64,000 bases of DNA from Mytilus galloprovincialis (lineage: Eukaryota; Mollusca; Bivalvia; Mytilida; Mytilidae). Made by a program: the position numbers and the translations under genes. Every line of letters begins with the position of its first letter. Position 1 is the first letter of the stretch. Positions 1,069-64,000 of the stretch are shown piece after piece. Location of the stretch: assembly GCF_965363235.1 (NCBI RefSeq), contig NC_134851.1:56176833-56240832 (forward strand). Reading direction: 5' to 3'. Under the pieces are notes generated by a model. That model was not told where the DNA came from and searched no databases. It was given only the letters and a program-made list of their open reading frames with translations.

Positions 1069-2799
1069 TTAGAATACTGTTTGTATTTCGTCATAATTTT
1101 TCTTGGAAGAATGAGCGTGTGTTGTTGTTTCGTCTTTTACATCTACTGTAGTGATCCTTGTTTGTTCAATATTGTTAATATGATGAACTCTATTCTTTGA
1201 TTTAAAGCATGGGTATACATTCAACACATGTTTTCTAAAGACCTTGTTTCGACTCAAATAAACAAATGGTGTAAAAATTCCTGCTACTTTAGTTATCATG
1301 GAAGGTATTGCCATTGTAATGGGATCGATTTCAGCATCCTTATTCAATACTTTCCACAGAAGTAGGACTGCAAATGGTGTGTAACATATCAAGAAGAATC
1401 CTATAAAAGAAAAAAATAGATTTGAAATCACACAAATTCTTCCAATTTGGTTTTCGAATAAAATGATCCTAAAAACGATTCAACAAAATGAAGAAAAATA
1501 ACATTTATTAATTTGGTGCGTTTAATGCGCTTTTCACGATCTTCCTTCATCAAGATCGTTTAACTCAAAATTTGTTTTGAAAGCAAGATAGATCAAATCC
1601 CACAAATATATACTTGTAAAAAAAACGGTCCTAAAAACTAACCTATGATTATGGTCGTTGTCACTGCAAGGTCTTGTTCCATAGTAAGTTTCTTTCGACA
1701 TTGCTTTGCTTTGTAAAAGCATTTCTTCGTCAGATTCGATCTTAAGTGCGCCTTGGAATCTTTCATCACCTTTATTCATTTGAATAAAAGTAAAACATTT
1801 TATAAGAACGATAAAAAAAATAGCCTTTTTTTTATTTATAAAAGTTCGATTAACGACACGTTATAATTTATCTCGAGATTTCTCGACTATTTTTTCATAT
1901 ATCGTTTTTAACATTGAGAACAAATTTATAAACAAGGAGAAAGTGAAAGCATGAACGTATACAGCTATATTCATACAAACAATACATAAATAAATTTTGC
2001 CTTATTTGTATGTCATTTGTTGGCTGATGATATAAATTTCTCATTGTGTAAACGCAGGTTAGTTGAACGAAAGTTTAGGATTGGGCATGTTCACGCACAC
2101 CAAGACGGGTAAGTGTTTTTACAAAAATACTTTGTAGGATATACCAACCTTCGCGTAAATATTTCCATATGAAAATATCATCACAGAAACTGGCATTACA
2201 AAGTAGGTAGCAAAAAGAGCCAAGATGAATGATTCTCCGTTATTGCTATCTCCAACTAGATCCATCGCACACGAGGTACCAACTCCTTCGTACGTGTACT
2301 GGTTCCATCCCAACAAAGGACTAATTGCAAAACCAAATGTAATGAGACAACACACAATTATAGACATGATGCTTGTTGTGGTTGACAGGTATTTTGCTAA
2401 ATTTGGTTGAACAACATATATGTACCGGTCGATGGAAATCATGGTCAAAAGAAGCATTGATGCAAGACTGCAAAACGACATCAAAAATCCGTTATATCTA
2501 CAGCTAGATACACCAAAGAGCCAGACGTTGTTAAAGCAAGACATTACCACCATTGGTGTCCCAAACGTTGTCATTATTAAATTCAAACAACAAATTGCTA
2601 CAATATACAGATTTGATTTAGTTATACGTGTCCTTTCTTTAACCAGGAATACAAAAATGACAGAACCGTTCGAAATGAAAGATCCCAGCCCTGATATTAG
2701 AAGTATCAGACCGAAAGTTAAATGAAACCAAGGTGGCGTTTGTGCAGCTATGAGTTCATGATGGTATTGTATAGTATTTCCTGTTGTATTGCATGACAT
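1069..2799 (-). CDS. Opsin gene 1 (369 aa, three coding exons)
   Basis: Retinal-binding G-protein-coupled receptor of the plasma membrane. Coding exons on the minus strand: 2149-2799, 1643-1769 and 1069-1400 (651, 127 and 332 nt; 370 codons with stop). Visible features: N-glycosylation sequon at Asn4, helix 1 about residues 27-53, disulfide cysteines Cys100 and Cys177, DRY motif 124-126, Glu171 (bovine Glu181 position), Glu247-type acidic residue at the base of helix 6, CYTPFA in helix 6 (Tyr in place of Trp265), Lys297 as the Schiff-base lysine, then TPFVY in place of NPxxY exactly seven residues on, and a YPC palmitoylation-type cysteine. Oddities: Asn103 at the bovine Glu113 position, Ser at site 292, a short C-tail, a weak donor (GTTGGT) after exon 1 and a purine-rich acceptor before exon 2. 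It is divergent from gene 2 upstream. Opsin identity is strong; the subclass (xenopsin, Go/tetraopsin or other) cannot be settled by eye. Confidence 0.92.
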
Positions 2800-5493: not shown

Positions 5494-5997
5494 TTTTAAA
5501 AATATGTCATGACGGTGCTTTTCAACACTGTCTATGCGGTAAGGACGTGTCTTAATGTTGATGGCTTTTAAAAATATGTCATGACGGTGCTTTTCAACAC
5601 TGTCAATGCGGTAAGGACGTGTCTTAATGTTGATGGCTTTTAAAAATATGTCATGACGGTGCTTTTCAACACTGTCAATGCGGTAAGGACGTGTCTTAAT
5701 GTTGGTGGCTTTTAAAAATATGTCATGACGGTGCTTTTCAACACTGTCAATGCGGTAAGGACGTGTCTTAATGTTGATGGCTTTTAAAAATATGTCATGA
5801 CGGTGCTTTTCAACACTGTCAATGCGGTAAGGACGTGTCTTAATGTTGATGGCTTTTAAAAATATGTCATGACGGTGCTTTTCAACACTGTCAATGCGGT
5901 AAGGACGTGTCTTAATGTTGATGGCTTTTAAAAATATGTCATGACGGTGCTTTTCAACACTGTCTATGCAGTAAGGACGTGTCTCATTGTTGCTGGC
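5494..5997. repeat. 72-bp minisatellite, seven near-identical copies
   Basis: Units begin with ttttaaaaatatgtcatgac at 5494, 5566 and every 72 bases to 5926. Copies are almost identical; the two outermost share gtctatgc where inner copies have gtcaatgc. Because 72 is a multiple of three, one minus-strand frame stays open through the whole array, giving a 187-residue frame (5485-6048) with a 24-residue repeat (KHRHDIFLKAINIKTRPY and onward) after a short hydrophobic start MKLLLGSVVLF. I do not recognise the protein, and an open frame is expected by chance for such an array, so no CDS is called. Confidence 0.9.
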
Positions 5998-6101
5998 TGT
6001 ACGAAAATGATGATAAAACAACACTACCGACCCCAAAAGCAATTTCAAAAAAGGAGATATTTATGTAACCTGACCAAATCAAACGCTATCAATCAACGAT
6101 A

Positions 6102-11163: not shown

Positions 11164-13266
11164 ATGGCTACCAACAGAAATATAATCAATATAATCAACC
11201 ATGAATTGTTAGCTGCGCAGACGCCTTCTTGGTTCCATTTCGTTTCCGGTGTGGCACTTCTGACAACAACTATTGTATCATTTATATCAAATGGTTCTGT
11301 CGTTTATATATTTTTTGTAAAAGATAGGAAGATGCTGTGTAGAACCAGAATGTATGTTGCAGCAATATGCTGCTTAAACTTTTTAATAGCAGCGTTCGGA
11401 ACACCAATGGTGGTATTGTCATGTTTTAACAAAGTATGGTTGTTTGGAAAATCTGGCTGTAGCTACTATGGCTTTTTGATATCGTTTGCAGGTCTTGCTT
11501 CAATGCTACTTCTTACCATGATTTCCGTTGACCGGTACATATATGTTGTAAAACACAATTTATCAAAACACCTGTCGACCTCACCAATCATCATTTGCAT
11601 ATCTATATGCTGTTTCATTACCTTTGGGTTAACCATTAGTCCCCTTATTGGATGGAACCAGTACACATACGAAGGAGTTGGTACAGCATGCGCAATAGAT
11701 CTAGTTGGTGAAAACAATAACGGCAAGTCATTCGTCTTGGCACTTTTTTCTATCTATTTTGCTTTTCCTGTTAGCGTGATGATATTTGCTTATGGATCTA
11801 TTTATGCAAAGGTAAGAACACCTTAAATATCTTTTGCCACCACAAAAAATAATAGTGGTAGAAAATTAAATAGTTGTACGCTGAAGGTCAAAAGGTCAAC
11901 AAGCAAATACCCATACAATACTTTAAATGTAAAATGGAAAGTGATTTTTCCAAGCACACACATTTAAAATCATAATAACTCATGATACTATTAATGAATA
12001 AAAACATTAAAAGTCTCAATCATATTGGATGTTCACGTTTTCTATTTTATCATATATTGATAATTCTGACCTTTAAGACAAATTCAAAAACTGATTAAAA
12101 AAATATCGTAATTTAAGGACGACAACTGTTTAAAGAGTCGCCATATAATTTTGACACAAATATGAAATATACAAAATTGTCTTTGGCTCTTGACAGGTGG
12201 TTAAAGATTCCAAGGCGCAACTGAAATACAATGGAAATATTGATTCAGTGGAAACAAGGAACAAGTTCAGAAAGAAATTGACTAACGAACAAGAACTTGC
12301 AATTACCGTGACCATGATTATTGGTAAGTTTCTAGGTAGTCTTTTATTAGTAAAATATACTTTACGACATTTTTCAATAGAATAATTATCCAAATAAAGG
12401 TAGTGAATTTAATCGCACAGAAAACAATATATCTAATAGATATACAAGTTAAACCAGTAAACTGTAACGAATTCATAAATAAAAATGAACTTTATAAACT
12501 GGTGCGCTCAAAGTACTTTTCTGAAATTATATACTAATGCTGAAACCATAAACTTTAAAGGAAAGCGACGAATATTTGCCTAAAGTAGTTGAGCTTTTTC
12601 GAATTTAGTCAGTAGTTGAACTTTTTGTTCCTTTAAAAATTCTAAAAATGTCAACCTATATTACAACTTGACACCAAATCTGATCAATTTTAGTAAAGGT
12701 TTAAAGATATAAGCATTTGTTTCAAAGAATGTGAAATACTCATGACATCCTAATATTAGTTTTGTATATTCAAATAATTGTGCATTTTTTTACTCTTATC
12801 TTCAGGTTTCTTTTTAATTAGTTACACACCATACACATGTGTACTTCTTTGGAAAGTATTGAGAATGGATGGTGAAATCCACCCAATTGCGATGGCAATT
12901 CCGGCTATGATAACTAAGATAGCTGGAATATTCACACCATTCGTCTATTTGAACAGGAGTAAACTCTTTCGAAAGCATCTGCTGAATTTATATCCATGTT
13001 TGAGATCGAAGAAAAGAGTACATGCCTCTAGGGGAATTGAGCAACGCGCAGTTATATCTGTAAACCTCAAAGGCGAAACAACAAAGGTGTATACTTCTAA
13101 CAGAACAGAAGGGAACAACTCAGATTGTCAACCGATCAAACATGACATATCAATAATCGACGACAACGTGCCAAATATGATTTCAAATATTCATTCTACC
13201 GTTGCTTTTTTCACTGTGGCCAACTCTGAAATCAATGAACATGATGAATATCAAGAGGATTCTTGA
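11164..13266 (+). CDS. Opsin gene 2 (411 aa, three coding exons)
   Basis: Complete retinal-binding GPCR. Exons 11164-11811, 12197-12323 and 12806-13266 (648, 127, 461 nt; 412 codons with stop), with clean sites gtaaga, gtaagt, tgacag and ttcag. Helices 1-5 lie in exon 1, loop 3 in exon 2, helices 6-7 and the tail in exon 3. Cys99 and Cys176 form the expected disulfide pair; Tyr102 is at the Glu113 position; DRY 123-125; Glu170 is at the Glu181 position; Glu247 at the base of helix 6 can pair with DRY; SYTPY has Tyr265 in place of Trp; Ala292 and Lys296 fall by coincidence at bovine numbering; TPFVY 302-306 replaces NPxxY. The long Ser/Thr-rich C-tail resembles that of gene 4. The ATG is preceded by cagcagac, much like gene 3. 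This is the best-formed gene of the window. The subclass is undecided. Confidence 0.95.
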
Positions 13267-17246: not shown

Positions 17247-18845
17247 GAAGACAATAACAATAAAAACCAAAAAGTAAACAAATACTAAATAAACCCAAAG
17301 GACATTTACATCAACAGTTATAAATCAGAAATAAGAAACAACACGAACTCAACTAAAAACCGGGAGTGAAATCAGATGCTCCGGAAGGGTAAGCATTTCC
17401 TGCACCGTATACGGCAACCGTCGTGTTATTTCTTTGTTCAGTTCGGTAATGATGGAAAGTTATTATGACTGAGGAAGAATATCAAATATAATATCTTAAA
17501 CACTTTTGTCATAATGGTTAATCAGCTCATGATGATGACCGTAAAATTTCTTGAGTGATGACCTTAATTTGATTGATTCATAGCCCTGTATAAGCAACTT
17601 TTGAGAAAGCAGAATTCCTCGTTCAACAAAATTAACGTACTTTGAGCTAGCTCTAGAGTAACGCATCAATTGAGACACATACACTCCATATGCTGGTGCC
17701 GCTAGGTTTGCTAGACAGAAATGGAAAGTTGACTATAGGTAAATTAAAATCATCGCGTTTGTCATAAATTTTGATATTCAACATACCATCAGTAGTCGTT
17801 TCGAGAAAAAGATCTAAAAGTGAAGCAGATTTATCTGTGTCGGTAGTTTCTTTAATTACAAGTTCACTTGGATATATTAAACGTAAGTTATACTGAATCT
17901 ATTATTATTATTAAGAGACAGTACATCATCAATATACCAAAAGGTGAAATTAAAAAACCAGGCTTATTTTTTTCTCCTATCTGTGCAAGCTCTTGAATAA
18001 ATTCTGCTTCATAGGAATACAAAAACAAATCTGCAAGTAGAGGAGCGCAATTGGTACCCATTGGAATTCCAATAGTCTGTTGGAAGACCAAACCTCCAAA
18101 TTCAACAAATATATTGTCAATTAAAAAGTCCAGCATGGCAGTGATATCCTCTTCGGTGTATTTTGTCCTTGACTCTGTATGATTTTTCACAAAATAAGGT
18201 GAATTTCTGCCCAAAACTAGATATTTAAAAGGTCTAGTGCACTTTTTGTTAACGAAACATAAGCTGACGAGTTCTTGTAGTCGAGCTTTAAGTTAAGTAT
18301 GTGGAATAGTGGTATAAAGAGTTGAAAATTAAAGGTTTTAATGTTGGTACAATGATTTATTGATTGAAATTGTAAATTCACCAATAACTCTTTTGGAATT
18401 TTTAAGCATCCACATCTGATTGACACAACTTCTTGAATATTTCTGAAGTCCTTCTTTGGCTGCAGAGAGTATAGAAGTAAGAACTCTAGAAATTTGCTGT
18501 TAACTTTAGAAAGGTGTTTAGTCGAACCCTTGGAAGAACCTGCAATATACCTTTCCTTATAAGGATTCTTGTGAAGCTTAGGAATCCAATATAAGGATTG
18601 AAGATCCTGGTCTTCATCCTTTGGACGAACACCAAAGGAGATTAGAACCGATTTGTGATTTTCCAGGATCTCCTGCTCCGTAAGATTACTTAGTGTCTAT
18701 GTAGGTTTTTGAAGTGTGTTATTTATCCCGAGTTCCTTAATCAGGCAGTCTGTGTAGTGTTTCTTGCAAAAAAAATCAATATTGTTTGAGGCTTTGTCAG
18801 CTGGAACGACAACACATTTGTCATGGAGGAAAGAAATATCAATAA
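17247..18845 (-). mobile_element. Penelope-like reverse transcriptase element fragment
   Basis: Minus-strand frames carry reverse transcriptase blocks in the expected order: a VVVPADKAS block, a YWIPKLHK block, a motif-A-like LYTSIPH relative, the FQQTIGIPMGTNCAPLLADL motif, and a C-terminal QLMRYSRASSKY ... KKFYGHHHELI block. Downstream is a non-coding tail ending near 17247, a variant of the family A tail that is shared with 48209-48388. The copy is broken and 5'-incomplete. Assignment to Penelope-like elements rests on the PKLHK and motif-A style; another non-LTR class is possible. No endonuclease is visible. Confidence 0.7.
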
Positions 18846-27353: not shown

Positions 27354-28117
27354 TTAAAAGAGGGACGAAAGATACCAAAGGGACAGTCAAACTCATAAAT
27401 CTAAAACAAACTGACAACGCCATGGCTAAAAATGAAAAAGACAAACAAACAACAGCACACATGACACAACATAGAAAACTAAAGAATAAACAACACGAAC
27501 CCCACCAAAAAACTAGGGGTGATCTAAGGTGCTCCGGAAGGGTAAGCAGATCCTGCTCCACATGTGGCACCCGTCGTGTTGCTTATGTGATAACAAATCC
27601 GGTAAATAGTCTAATTCGGTAGGTCACATTCATGAAAGGGAAGGGGATTGTAGTTACGACGTAAGGAACATATCCGATATCATTTGTGAAACGGTTATTC
27701 CATAACAGTCAACCAACTCGTGATGGCGTCCGTAAAATGTACGAAGTGATGATTTCAACTTCACCATTTGGAACTCTTGGTTTAATAGCTTCCTTGTGAG
27801 CAGCAACCCTCTATCAAGAGATTCATGATAGGAAATGCAAGCACGGGAATGTATCAATTGGGAGATATATATCCCGTATGCAGGTGCTGCTGGAATATTG
27901 CTACTTAGAAATGGAAACTTCACAATTGGAAAGCTGAAATCATCTCTTTTGTCGTAAAGTTTTGTTTTCAACCGACCTTCATTGTCAATTTCTAGATGTA
28001 AGTCAAGATATGAGGCCGACTAAACTGTATCTGTAGTATTCTTATCTCTAGCTCGATGGGATAGATGCGTTCCACATAGTCACCAAATTTTGAATTATTT
28101 AGTGAAAGAACATCATC
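27354..28117 (-). mobile_element. Penelope-like RT element, 3' fragment with tail
   Basis: The minus-strand frame at 27654-27971 gives the reverse transcriptase C-terminal region (KLYDKRDDFSFPIVKFPFLS, AYGIYISQLIHSRA, LRTFYGRHHELVDCYG). It is followed by a 300-base non-coding tail ending in a tctttcgtccctc-type terminus. This copy links the scattered family A tails to a reverse transcriptase. It is 5'-truncated and broken. Confidence 0.75.
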
Positions 28118-38912: not shown

Positions 38913-41900
38913 TTAGAATCTATCGTCAGGCTGCTTAGAGTTGTTGCCCTGTTTTGTATTGGAAGGACGCACGTTTGCTGTTTCATCTATGTTGTGTACA
39001 GTTGTCATTGTTGTTTGTTCAATACTTTCACGTGTATGTACTACGTTCCTCGGTCTAAAACACGGGTATATATTCAACATGTGTTCTCTAAAGACGTCGT
39101 TCTTGCTCAAAAAGACGAATGGTGTGAATACTCCCGCAATCTTAGTTATCATATTTGGTATTGCCATGACAATTGGGTCGATTTCAGCATCTTTACTCAA
39201 TACTTTCCATAAAAGTACACATGCATATGGTGTGTAACACATTAAGAAGAAACCTAGAAAAAAGAAAAATCATCATAATTCTATATATATATATATAAAT
39301 GCGAATGTGTAAAAGATTTTCACTAATACACTCAGTAATATGTATCATTGCGATTTGATATGAACACAAGAAGAATTAAACAATTTGACATTAATAAAAA
39401 GAAAAATCACAAAAATACTGAACTACAAGGAAAACTGAAGAAACTGCATGCAAATTGTATGGAAAGTTACAGAATTACAAAGGTTCCACCTTCCAAAGTC
39501 AAGACTGACCATACGTCACTGCGTTCTTTCGTCTGTCAGTTCGTCCGTTCTCTGGCTTCAGGTTAAAATGTTTGGTCAAGGTAGTTTTTAATAAAGTTGA
39601 AGTCTATCAATTTGAAATTTAGAACACATGTTGCCTCTGATGTGATCTCTTTAATTTTACTGCTTTCATCACGAACGCTCAAAGCCAAATATATGTACGT
39701 ACCGACATACGAGAGTATCTATATGCCATTAAGGGCCCTTAGAATAATAATAAAATAATCTATATGCAAGGATCGGTGGTCTGAGGGAGTTCCTAATTAA
39801 ATGTTATAATAGTTTGTAAAATATACAATTTAAGAATATGATGTCTATTCCGAAGCACTAACTCCTGTGCTGATGATCCTCTTAATGACTTATTTAGAAT
39901 GGACTATGGTGAAGTTTAGGAACTTGTGTCAGATGTTCGCACTAATTTTTAAAATATTTTGCTTCATAACATCCATTGTTTTTCCCTTCAATAATTCGTA
40001 AAAGGACATTTAGCATTTGTTTCATATTTTTAATAAGTAATTGATTTTCAAAATTTTGGCCTCAAACATCACAGAAGAGACATTGGCGGTTGAAATGCGC
40101 AAATGGTGCCAAAAATGGTACCGTTTATGTTATTAGCAAAATTTAAGCATGTTCTTGATTTCTATTCTTTTTATTTGAAAATAATAATGCCAACGTGAAT
40201 AAAAGGTTAAAGTCCGAGTCTTCCTTTTTTACACAAATTTTGAAAAAAAATATCCCGAAAAGGAGCTCCATAACCTATCAATATTGTAAGCTTATTTGTT
40301 CCTTTACTAATGCTCTTTCGACATAAGGTATCGGTTCTAAATTCTGGATTTTTTAAATTTCAACTAAGTTCATTCATTAGTTAGGATCAATTTGTATATT
40401 CAGTTGTCCGCAAATTATGGTATGTGATACGGTTGTCAATGTAACTGTCCATCTAAGACCAAATGGTAAGCCTGGGATATGTAGAATGTAAACTTTTATG
40501 TATCTATTTATTGAAACATATCAACATCTTTTTTTCTTGAAATTTAAATTGAGTTTAGATGTTATTTATAACTTACAAATATTAATGATAACTGTTATGG
40601 CAAGTTCTTGTTCCATGAATAATTTCTTTCGAAATTCTTTCCTTTGTAACGCGACATCCTTCCTTCGACTGTATCCCAATTTGGCCTTAGAATCTTTCAA
40701 CACCTTTCATGAAAAAAAAGTAAAATTATAAACTTACGATGAATTCAGCAATAATTCCGTTGACAAATACATACTAGTAGTCACCACATCTGTTCTGGTT
40801 TCTTCCAATGCGACCTGCTGAATTAGACTTATCACCTAGTTCGTTCTTACACGAGCGACATGGCGGGTGACCTTGAAGTAGTTTGTAAACATTACAGTAT
40901 TCTCTTTTCGAAAAGCTTTGTTTTACAACCGTTATCAATTTTACAAAGTTATCTAACATTGTTAAATTTCAAATTCATTAAGATTTCTGATTTTGTACAG
41001 GTTTACTGAAGACCATGTAGGATCAGCATGTTTTTTTTTTATTATTTTTTATTCCATACTGCTATAATACTACTGTAAACTGCAATCCTAAAGGTAGCAA
41101 TGGTGGTCATATTTAATAAAAAAAAAATATTTTTACTTTTTTTTACGTAGATTTGCAGTGTACTTTCTTTTCCTGATAGTCAAATGTTTAGTTTTGAGTA
41201 TATAATTGATGATGGCAAGGCAATGACAGTTTAGACGAATGCTATTAATGATTTTGTTTTGTATCATTAACATGATGTTGTTTGTTTTTCAATACATTTG
41301 AACTCCAGCCTATATAGCTAAGAAGATATGTTGATATAGCACCCAAAAACGTGTTTCATGACTATGTTTTGATACATTTTGAAGTTGTACATACCTTTGC
41401 ATAAATAGAACCGTAAGCAAATATCATCACAGAAACCGGTAAAGCAAAGTAGATAACACATAGAGTTAAGACAAATGATTGGCCGTTATTCTTCTCTCCA
41501 GTTAGATCTATCGCACACGAGGTACCAACCCCTGCGTATGTGTACTGGTTCCATCCAATTAAAGGACTAATGGTAAAACCAAATGTCATAAAAAAGCATA
41601 CAGTAATAGTTATAATGATAGGCATCGTTGACTGATGTTTTGATAAATTGTGCTTTACAACGTAAATGTAACGGTCGATTGAAATCATAGTCAAAAGAAA
41701 TATTGACGCAAGACCACCAAAAGACATCAAAAAGCCATAGTATGTACAACCGGATTTTCCAAACAACCATAGTTTGTTAAAACAGGATATTACCACCATT
41801 GGTGTTCCAAAAGTTGCCATTAATAAGTTCAAACAACATATTGCAATTATATAAACAGTTGTTCTGGTCTGTAGCTTTCTGTCTTTAAGCAGTAATGCAA

Positions 41901-42045
41901 ATATAACAAAACCATTTGAGACTATAGATACAACAGTCGTATTAAGTAGAATCACACCGAAAGTGAAATGGAACCACGAAGGCGTCTGTGCAGCTATAAT
42001 ATCATGATGGCTGTTTATGCTTATAAGTGTTGTGTTGTTAGGCAT
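38913..42045 (-). CDS. Opsin gene 3 (372 aa), counterion site changed
   Basis: Minus-strand exons 41395-42045, 40577-40703 and 38913-39253 (651, 127, 341 nt; 373 codons with stop), all with GT/AG sites (gtatgt, gtaagt; atgaaag, ttctag). Seven helices; sequons at Asn3/Asn4; Cys100-Cys177; DRY 124-126; Lys297 as Schiff-base lysine. Unusual: Ala171 at the bovine Glu181 position (codon GCA where gene 1 has GAA), Tyr103 at the Glu113 position, Asn at site 292, Tyr for Trp265, and TPFVF where the other copies have TPFVY. The codon split between exons 2 and 3 reads Cys instead of Gly. No stop or frameshift is seen, so it appears functional. The short C-tail resembles gene 1. A role as an opsin is strong; its absorbance and signalling are unknown. 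Confidence 0.93.
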
Positions 42046-45169: not shown

Positions 45170-45660
45170 TTGGTTTCACGAGGAATAGGTGTTATGGCTA
45201 TTGCACGGTCACTTTCCAGTTCAAATTGGAGGTTTGGTCATTCAGCGCAAAAGCAATCGTAAACATTTGTTTAAAATCGCTGAAAATGATGTGGCATATA
45301 TTTCGGGCAAGAAGGTGTGGATTATTTTATACGATTGTCATACAAGTGAGGGGTTTAGTGTGTCATATATTTCGGGCAAGAAAGTGTGGATTATTTTATA
45401 CGATTGTCCTACAAGTGAGTGGTTTGATGTGTCATATATTTCGGGCAAGAAGGTGTGGATTATTTTATACGATTGTCATACAAGTGAGGGGTTTAGTTAT
45501 CTGTAATCCCAGGTTTAATCCACATGTTTTACATAATGATTGTACATGTCAGGAATATCAAAGTTGTCTTCGATTCGTTTGATTTGGAATTTGTTCAGGG
45601 ACTCATCGTTTTGCATTTTTCTTAGAGTTCGATATTATTGTTATTTTACATTTTTCATAG
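45170..45660 (+). repeat. Repeat E copy with internal 69-bp array (three units)
   Basis: Units start at 45291, 45360 and 45429 (gtgtcatatatttcgggcaa ... acaagtgaggggtttag), period 69. The unit includes the usual E start, gtcatacaagtgaggggttt. After the third unit E continues normally (cccaggtttaatccac, gtcaggaatatcaaagttgt). A 69-base period keeps frames open, which explains the 140- and 105-codon frames here; they are not called as genes. Confidence 0.75.
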
Positions 45661-61223: not shown

Positions 61224-64000
61224 CTAAACATCAGATACAATTATAATACTCTCTGTATCAATTGTATCTGCAATATCGACCAAAGATTTTTGAATAATTT
61301 TTGAAAAAGAAGATTCCTTTTGATATTCATAAATGTCAGATGTTTCTACAGTATACACAGCGACTTCAGAATGTCCATCTTCACGATGTTTTGAGTTGTT
61401 GCTCTCTTTAGATTTGGCAGAATGCACGCTAGGCGTTTCTTCTTTATGACTTACTGTTGTACGTGGTCCGCCGTCAATACTTGGATGTACTCTATTTTTC
61501 GATCTGAAACAGGGGTATATACTTAACAAATGTTCCCGAAAGGCTTTGTGTTTGCCCAAATAGACAAATGGAGTAAACACCCCTGCAATCTTAGTAAGCA
61601 TGGTTGGAATAGCCATGGCAATTGGGTCGATTTCAGCATCTGTATTCAATACTTTCCAAATAACTATAAATGCGTATGGCGTGTAACATATTAAGAAGAA
61701 ACCTAAAAAGAAATACACGTAATAATAAACTATATTTTAATGAACAAAAACAAGTTTATCCCTTTACAAATGCATTCATTCTATACAAAATTATAAAATA
61801 CATTTTCGAAAAAGTTATGATACACATTTAACAATTAGTTAACAAATTTATGCTAAGTTAGTGATGAAACAAAAAATGTTGCCAAATTCTTCATTGTTTC
61901 ATGTTTGTTTATTTTATAATTATTGAGATTATAGCACAGTTTTGACCTATCATGTCTGTTTGATTCGTTCATGCATCGTTGTCAATACAATGGAATTTGA
62001 TGCGACTGTCATACAAGAGAGAGGTTAAGCTATATATATAACACGTTTCAACCCATGATTTTCTACATAAGAAAATGCATGTACCGAGTCTGGAATATGA
62101 CAGCTGTTATCCATTCGTTTTATGTGTTTGAGCTTTTAATTTTACCATTTGATTATGGACTTTCCGTTTTGAATTTTCCTCAGAGTTCAGTATTTTTGTG
62201 ACTTAATAAAAATTGTTGTTATTCTCTAGGAAAATATACCCTTACCTGTATTTGACAAAACTTTCGGAATAATGGGTCCTCAATGATCATCAACTTGAGT
62301 TTTTTTTTAATTTGTTTATCCAAACGTCACGGATGAATACTTTGTAGATCAAAAATAATTTCATTTACTTAGAGCTGTATGCTTATTAAGTTATTATTTC
62401 AGACAAAGTTATTTCTCATAGCAAAATATTCCGAGAAAAAGTCAGAAATGGCTACCTAAATAAGTGTGGCTTGCATTGTCTACTGATATTCATTGTACAG
62501 CATATTTTAGAGCAATTTTGCCATATAGTGTTTTTTGAGACTCAATTCTATCAGAATATTTCATTTTTGTAATATTTCACTTAAATAGCATGAAATTTTA
62601 ACAAAAGAGAGAACTCAGAAGGTCGAAGGTGAATGTGCAGTTTCCTATTGATCAATTAAAGATCAATAATAACTCACGACAACACAAAAGCGTTAATTAC
62701 TGGGCTTTGGGAAATCTCTATCGTCAGGTAGGGTAAAAAACGTAGAACTAACCAATGTTAATGGATACAGTAACTGCGAGCCGCTTTTCGACGGTCATTT
62801 TCCTTCGGAGTTCTTTTCTTTTGTCCTCAGAATCTTCCCTCCGATGACTTGCCGATTCATTCTTGGCATCTTTCAACACCTGTCAAGAAACATGTATAAT
62901 TGTAAAATAAAGATAGATGTAAATTTCATCGATATCATAATTTTTTGGACAATTCGACGACGACTGCATCGAGTTAACTAAAACATTTCTGACATTTCAT
63001 AAATCAATGTTTCATTTGAACTTTAGAATAACATAAACGGTACCAATTTTCTGCAACATATGCGCATTTCAACAATCAATGTTTCTCTAACTATATGAAA
63101 ACCCCAAAAAGAGCTATAAACAAAAAAGGAACCAAAAGTATAGCCAAAGCCGGGCAAGGAATCAGAGCGTTTCATAATGGAGATACATTCCTTTCTTTTG
63201 TAACAGTTTCCTTAATTGTTTAACAGCAGTTTTTTATAACATAATACCATATTTTAATGTCAGTACAAAAGTTCTGTCTACTGGAACGGTGATACCCTCG
63301 GCCACTTTCAATACATGATAATTATATCAGTTTAAGTTCTATGCCATGTTTATTGTATTAAAAATTAACGGACAACGCCTTGTCTTAGAGGAAAAAGACA
63401 AACAGACAAACAACAGTTCACAAAACACAACATATACAACGAAAGATTGAGTAACACCATCCCAACAAAAACTGGGATGTGATCTCAGGTGCTCCGGAAG
63501 GATAAGCAGATCCTGCATCACATTTGTCACATCGTGGTAATCTTGTGAATAAAACCCGGTAATTGGTCTAATTCGGTAAGTCACTTTCAAGGAGAAGGGG
63601 GCCGGATTGTAGTTACGACATCTTAATCATATTTGCTGTATGATGCATTTAAAGGAGGCAAGTAAAATTTGTTTTTTCGATTTGTAGTTTTGAATGTCTC
63701 TTTCGCTTCTACTTAGCTAAGAAAATACTAGATAAAACATATGAAAACCAACATCATCTAATAACATCAGTTATATATGAGTTCTTTATCTAAAATGAAA
63801 TTCAAATCCATAGTCTGGAATGTATTTATAAGTTTTGAAAAAAGCACATCGGATTCACATTAAAAGAACGTTAATAATATTTGCTTCAATCGACGTACAA
63901 TTCACATAAATATTCAAATCGCGCTTCAAAATGTTTTCGTTTTAACAACTTCCGTAGATGATACCTACCTTTGCATAAATAGATCCGTATGCGAATATCA
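61224..64000 (-). CDS. Opsin gene 4 (5' part outside the window)
   Basis: Minus-strand coding exons 63969-64000 (only the last 32 nt of exon 1, ending Ile-Phe-Ala-Tyr-Gly-Ser-Ile-Tyr-Ala-Lys), 62753-62879 (127 nt) and 61224-61702 (479 nt). Splice sites gtaggt, gttagt, tgacag and tttttag. Exon 3 gives helix 6 with CYTPYA (Tyr for Trp265), helix 7 with Thr at site 292, the Schiff-base lysine, TPFVY, a YPC cysteine and the longest C-tail of the cluster (Ser/Thr-rich, ending SIIIVSDV). The tail shares a TVxxSxIxEYQxxS pattern with gene 2. If exon 1 has the usual 648-651 nt, the protein is about 417-418 residues. Residues of helices 1-5 cannot be assessed. Confidence 0.92.
61985..62205 (+). repeat. 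Repeat E copy in intron 2 of gene 4
   Basis: gcgactgtcatacaagagag, ttctacataagaaaatgcat, ggaatatgacagctgtta and cctcagagttcagtattttt: a near-complete E in the second intron, antisense to the gene. A reversed D fragment follows at 62235-62340. Confidence 0.7.
63340..63640 (-). mobile_element. Family A tail in intron 1 of gene 4
   Basis: Reads caacgccttgtcttagagga, ggtgctccggaaggataagc, ggtctaattcggtaagtcac and gtagttacgacatctta in the order of the 27.4-27.67 kb tail, in the same orientation as gene 4. The open frame across it is a shadow. Confidence 0.6.

Follow-up and report, generated by a model that had tools for sequence, protein, structure and literature searches.

The window analysed here, a stretch of 64,000 nucleotides from Mytilus galloprovincialis (C14:56176833-56240832), comes from one assembly of 1.38 Gb in 331 contigs, representing one haplotype. 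It contains a tandem cluster of opsin genes (Table 1). The three exons of gene 3 join at GT-AG sites to give a protein of 372 residues with no internal stop, and the borders of its exon 2 are those of the paralogs whose exon 2 was found. The protein matches the Pfam family PF00001 (7tm_1) with 133.7 bits against a cut-off of 30.5. The initial annotation had stated that the retinal-binding lysine is kept, and this was found to be so, as MITK in TM7 aligns to bovine Lys296. The Cys110-Cys187 pair and the DRY motif at 134-136 are retained as well. The NPxxY motif is missing in gene 3, which has TPFVF in its place, and the seven paralogs compared have TPFVY. A predicted model of exon 1 alone (TM1-5) has a mean pLDDT of 83.5, and residues 168-171 and 176-179 form two strands in it, matching the expected hairpin of the second extracellular loop (ECL2). 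Of the PDB structures, jumping spider rhodopsin-1 matches this model best, with an rmsd of 1.4 and a TM score of 0.86 (normalised by query length).

Table 1. Opsin features of the window (positions counted from its first nucleotide; residues in bovine numbering)
Feature	Position	Strand	Description
Gene 2 (paralog L015)	1099..2793	-	Exons 2793-2146, 1769-1650 and 1401-1099 (match borders) plus tail; Glu181, Asn113
Gene 1 (paralog L012)	11170..13266	+	Exon matches from 11170, 12197 and 12805; Glu181, Tyr113
Gene 3 exon 3	38913..39253	-	TM6-TM7, Lys296, Asn292, TPFVF at 302-306, tail; TAA stop 38915-38913
Gene 3 exon 2	40577..40703	-	Third cytoplasmic loop and start of TM6; AG acceptor, GTAAGT donor
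Gene 3 exon 1	41395..42045	-	Met1 to ..YAK; TM1-TM5 with ECL2; ORF and translation; donor GT after AAG
Gene 3 codon 181	41533..41535	-	GCA = Ala; GAA (Glu) in 7/7 paralogs at codon level
Gene 4 (paralog L014)	61224..64000	-	Exon 3 match 61703-61377 (ORF to 61224), exon 2 match 62879-62754; Glu181; exon 1 extends beyond the window end

The ECL2 region of gene 3 (minus strand, exon at 42045-41395) reads GWNQYTYAGVGTSCAIDL. Ala171 and Cys177 of the protein correspond to 181 and 187 in bovine numbering. Since the alanine stands six residues ahead of the cysteine of ECL2, and Cys110 and Cys187 are 77 residues apart as in bovine rhodopsin, this alanine is the residue at position 181. Thus the absence of Glu181, which had been placed at 41519-41536, was borne out by an alanine codon inside that interval, and so was the sequence QYTYEGVGT with its GAA codon in genes 1 and 2. 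Glutamate was found at 181 in all 21 of the other opsin frames of the same genome that are readable across the site, xenopsins being outside this sample. These frames are the 15 other rows of alignment A1, together with L019, L031, L032, L066, L067 and L011, the last counted through an exon protein identical to that of L010; the set consists of the best-scoring search candidates and is not a full opsin census. Another 17 receptor frames (L001-L008, L028-L030, L033-L038) were kept out of the opsin count. None of them has the opsin Lys296 in its TM7 context as far as they are readable, and L034, L036 and L037 stop short of TM7 in their readable sequence. L029 has Gln at the 181 position, yet Met at 296. 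A single lysine scored as Lys296 in L034, a fragment of 157 residues, was rejected as an alignment artefact.

It is certain that the assembly reads alanine at codon 181; that the alanine is fixed and has an effect is inferred. Alternatively, the assembly could be wrong at this codon, or the individual could carry a rare allele or have lost the residue very recently, with the gene in the population keeping its glutamate. The difference is a single base, seen in one assembly. In the genome search gene 3 was found as a single copy (the next best is 72% identical, among the best-scoring candidates). Against such an error, the surrounding frame and the splice sites are clean, and the unique residues at 292, 306 and 311 mark a distinct locus rather than a miscopied paralog, although they would still allow an error of one base. 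On balance we regard this explanation as quite unlikely.

The initial annotation had taken tyrosine at the Glu113 site as a second peculiarity of gene 3. The tyrosine is present, but it is not odd: six of the seven paralogs have it, and tyrosine is found at this site in most invertebrate visual opsins (PMC4289182). It was therefore rejected as a second oddity. In gene 2 (exon 2146-2793) asparagine replaces the tyrosine, with Glu181 retained. The view that opsins normally hold an acidic counterion at 113 or 181 was incomplete in its list of sites, as residues 94 and 83 and chloride acting with Glu292 have also been reported (PMC12401545, PMC12221356). As translated, gene 3 has Asn83, Val94, Tyr113, Ala181 and Asn292 beside Lys296, and is thereby shown to have no acid at any of the counterion sites named in the parts of the literature examined. 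The acids missing at 83, 94 and 292 make the case for loss of the counterion stronger than the earlier claim had made it. Asn83 is common to five of the seven paralogs, the other two having Ser. Asn292 occurs only in gene 3 among the eight genes compared, and the others have Ala, Ser or Thr. Gene 3 is likewise non-acidic at 117, 118 and 186, and at 179, 182 and 286, which are candidate sites tested in crustacean Opn5b.

The acids that gene 3 does have lie (bovine numbering) at N-terminal position 18 (26 in another alignment), 65, 134, 190 and 194/196, in the third cytoplasmic loop and the start of TM6 (232-249 and an insert), at 280, 282, 284, 311 and 315, and in the C-terminal tail. A search for a conserved acid that might serve all the paralogs, as had been suggested, was made in the eight genes, covering exon 1 beginning at AAQT and 70 codons from the start of exon 3, and none was found near the pocket that could obviously do so. 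Only 134, which belongs to the DRY motif, and 194/196 of ECL2 are acidic in all eight; neither is a convincing counterion, and a shared alternative acid was rejected. Residue 190 is Asn in gene 4, so that the acid at 190 is not common to all eight. It could be proposed that in gene 3 a different side chain has taken over as counterion, such as Asp190 or Glu194/196 in ECL2, acting through Ser186 and water. The acids are indeed present at these places, and relocation has precedents in Glu94 of jellyfish and Asp83 of crustacean Opn5b (PMC12221356). Gene 3, however, has no acid at 83, 94, 113, 117, 118, 179, 182, 186, 286 or 292, and the acids at 190 and 194/196 are also found in paralogs that retain Glu181. 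In addition, 190 and 194/196 lie in the outer loop, as judged from their position in bovine rhodopsin. A relocated counterion is thus improbable.

In the tree the cluster genes and a pair of genes on contig C1 form one clade (100/99). Human OPN5 falls outside it on a long branch, in a tree that has three human references and whose deeper tetraopsin forks are weak and have long branches. No Opn5 structure occurred among the best 60 matches listed for each PDB sequence search of the opsin exons. The cluster probably consists of derived tetraopsins with a neuropsin-like identity. Duplications of neuropsin (Opn5) have been described in Mytilus, which has four copies where the other species studied have one (PMC10982516), and neuropsin duplications in mytilids have been reported together with a Go-opsin expansion in mytiloids (PMC10733189). 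The present cluster resembles that expansion in its lineage-specific duplications, but it is larger; no mention of counterion loss was found in the available parts of these two reports. All eight cluster genes compared have Tyr265, a residue 83 that is not acidic, and TPxx(Y/F) at 302-306. Tyr265 separates the cluster from the other tetraopsin last exons that were read; the C1 pair has Trp265, but shares TP and the non-acidic residue at 83 with the cluster. In L024 and L026 residue 83 is Gly. Vertebrate SWS1 pigments likewise have tyrosine at 265.

Selection on gene 3 was estimated with a codon model of eight paralogs and 270 codons, covering the same parts of exons 1 and 3 as the search for a shared acid. 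These codon analyses did without exon 2 and without L011, the pair on C1 and the broken copy L019/L021; in them the row 'g10' joins exon 1 from L010 to exon 3 from L040. It was found that dN/dS is 0.193 on the gene 3 branch as compared to 0.202 in the background, and omega = 1 was rejected (LRT 35.6). Two alternative topologies gave the same result, and the profile of omega extends from about 0.12 to about 0.32 when its limit is set at 3.84 units of twice the log-likelihood. If lost constraint is taken as an omega of 1, simple arithmetic allows an unconstrained share of at most about 15% of the gene 3 branch. The omega is an average over the whole branch and may be compatible with a recent loss. 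Gene 3 is not simply decaying, and a pseudogene is disfavoured by its intact splicing and its dN/dS of 0.19.

At the 89 sites that are invariant in the other seven genes, gene 3 shows four changes of its own, L126F, E181A, Y306F and K311D. This is fewer than the unique changes of five of those seven genes. Three of the four (E181A, Y306F and K311D) fall among 11 functional sites, with a hypergeometric P of 0.005 on a list that was drawn up post hoc. Together with its short C-terminal tail, the unique Phe306 and Asp311 suggest that signalling by gene 3 may have changed too. E181A, Y306F, K311D and the short tail could fit altered or lost signalling as well as they fit a retuning to light.

This brings in the main rival to a counterion-less pigment, namely that gene 3 has a non-photoreceptive role. 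It might no longer signal light and might serve as a sensor independent of light, as a decoy that binds retinal or as a receptor with weakened G-protein coupling, in which the loss of Glu181 would be costless as absorption of visible light is unselected. In its favour are the changes Y306F (NPxxY-equivalent) and K311D (G-protein tripeptide), both unique to gene 3, the concentration of unique changes at functional sites, and the early end of the C-terminal tail, past whose stop the DNA continues to resemble the tail of a paralog. Tyr265 and TPxx(Y/F), common to the cluster, agree with it also. On the other hand, Lys296 is retained, purifying selection is as strong as in the paralogs, and the number of unique changes is small. 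Such a role is rather unlikely in our estimate. A related explanation, that gene 3 is a photoisomerase-like (retinochrome-like) opsin with no need of G-protein contact, would account for the weak NPxxY-equivalent TPFVF and the altered tripeptide NDV. It is highly improbable, because squid retinochrome itself depends on Glu181 (PMC6513861) and the DRY motif of gene 3 is intact.

Glu181 is thought to be the ancestral counterion of opsins. The reading that we prefer, tentatively and at a little under an even chance, is that gene 3 encodes a counterion-less pigment with a low Schiff-base pKa, which would be UV-absorbing and/or stabilised by chloride in the manner of coral ASO-II opsins. Gene 3 would be a functional-looking member of the tandem cluster in which the ancestral Glu181 gave way to Ala on its own branch, most simply by one A-to-C change in the middle base of GAA, resulting in GCA. 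The predicted pigment would for the most part be deprotonated and absorb in the UV, and a visible form maintained by chloride would exist in equilibrium with it. Chloride in the body fluid of marine mussels is close to the level of seawater, and such a level would push the equilibrium towards the form that has bound chloride. The anion could plausibly find polar partners in Ser186 and in Asn292, which lies one turn of the helix away from Lys296. In that case chloride and pH, and not a side chain, would determine the state of the pigment. Gene 3 has lost the acidic residue that normally gives opsins their sensitivity to visible light but seems intact otherwise, and it may be a UV- or chloride-tuned sensor. 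The explanations that had been offered for the missing glutamate (a UV-type Schiff base, a relocated counterion or a non-photoreceptive role) all still stand, relocation being the least likely of the three; the list lacked exogenous chloride.

In spider Rh1 the mutation E181Q lowers the pKa from 11.0 to 6.1, and the visible peak is nearly gone at pH 7.4 (PMC6513861). Cl- can stand in for the counterion in mutants that lack one, and it serves natively in the wild-type ASO-II opsins of corals (PMC12401545). In the coral opsin Antho2a carrying E292A the pKa is 6.1 at 2.8 mM NaCl and 9.0 at 500 mM, and this mutant binds Cl- far more weakly, with a Kd of 12.7 as against 0.079 mM (PMC12401545). As Glu292 of ASO-II helps to bind Cl- and gene 3 has Asn292, this counts against the chloride reading. 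The coral Antho2e is UV-sensitive even at 1 M NaCl owing to its Arg113 (PMC12401545), and its lack of response warns against an easy generalisation of the chloride mechanism. Mixed UV and visible responses have been described for Opn5A and Opn5B of a land slug, for which a mixture of protonated and deprotonated pigment is one explanation given by the authors (PMC10729476); these opsins retain Glu181 (PMC12221356).

Among the known systems, coral ASO-II opsins (Antho2a/2c/2e) come close to gene 3, since they have Lys296 and no acid at 94, 113 or 181 (PMC12401545). Wild-type ASO-II opsins absorb in the visible or in the UV, and in the two visible-absorbing ones that were tested the counterion of the dark state is Cl- (PMC12401545). 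They differ from gene 3 at 292, where those of A. tenuis have Glu or Asp and gene 3 has Asn (PMC12401545). Because gene 3 falls in the tree among mussel paralogs with Glu181, any likeness to ASO-II would be convergent. RhOpn5 of Rimicaris, a crustacean Opn5b, is also without acid at 94, 113 and 181 and has Phe181 (PMC12221356). Crustacean Opn5b, however, uses Asp83 and lacks residue 186, whereas gene 3 has Asn83 and keeps Ser186 (PMC12221356). Nematostella has opsins of other clades that miss several counterion sites too: Glu181 or Glu113 is present in only some of its opsins, and Asn83 occurs in some of its ASO-I and ASO-II (PMC10512536). More than 95% of cnidopsins are acidic at 181 (PMC5155618). 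As natural exceptions are known, the missing acid at 94, 113 and 181 does not exclude gene 3 from the opsins. No priority is claimed for gene 3 as an opsin without an acid at any of the five sites, as cnidarian repertoires vary at several of them. The E181Q mutants of spider Rh1 and retinochrome are the laboratory counterpart of Ala181, but they are engineered, have Gln instead of Ala and belong to other families (PMC6513861, PMC12401545). The gluopsins are natural relatives of opsins without a supposedly essential residue, in their case Lys296, which gene 3 keeps (PMC9368030). Razor-clam opsins are stated to have a Glu counterion (PMC10788561). In a full-text literature search, with subscription papers and supplements outside its scope, no report of a bivalve opsin without Glu181 was found in the parts of articles available.

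A bolder possibility, which we consider unlikely, goes further than the preferred reading. Gene 3 would be a natural bilaterian opsin without any protein counterion, in which the Schiff base is set by the chloride and pH of the fluid and the pigment shifts between UV and visible, as a convergent and more extreme version of ASO-II. A tandem duplicate without Glu181 beside sisters that have Glu181 is a natural pair in which it can be asked how a counterion gets dropped. It can also be asked there if its place is then taken by chloride or by a UV state, as has been proposed for early opsins. Gene 3 also bears on why eyeless mussels retain so many opsins.

Apart from the opsins, the window contains a tandem array of 72 bp at 5494-5998, with seven copies 98% alike in an open frame of 24-residue repeats. 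Pfam matches to this array (KID repeat and others) were discarded, as no stretch passes alone and they look like chance driven by the repeats. Another array, of three 69-bp copies in an open frame at 45290-45497, has no Pfam match at E 0.01. The open frames at 17888-18696 and 27654-28019 are mobile-element-like by eye, again with no Pfam match at E 0.01. Further copies lie outside the window. One cluster copy, split over two search matches (L019 and L021, C14:56149746-56150371), has its exon 1 broken by TGA and is probably a pseudogene. The C1 gene L018 may be a broken copy too; its last exon (L050, C1:73591546-73591686) has a TGA soon past the retinal lysine. At L010 and L011 (C14:56257217-56257870 and 56261488-56262141) the complete first exon lies in a block of some 1.2 kb that is present twice; a single exon 2 separates the two copies and a single exon 3 follows them. 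Every bin of the block has at least 99 of 100 bases identical, and the repeat is either an intragenic duplication or an assembly artefact.
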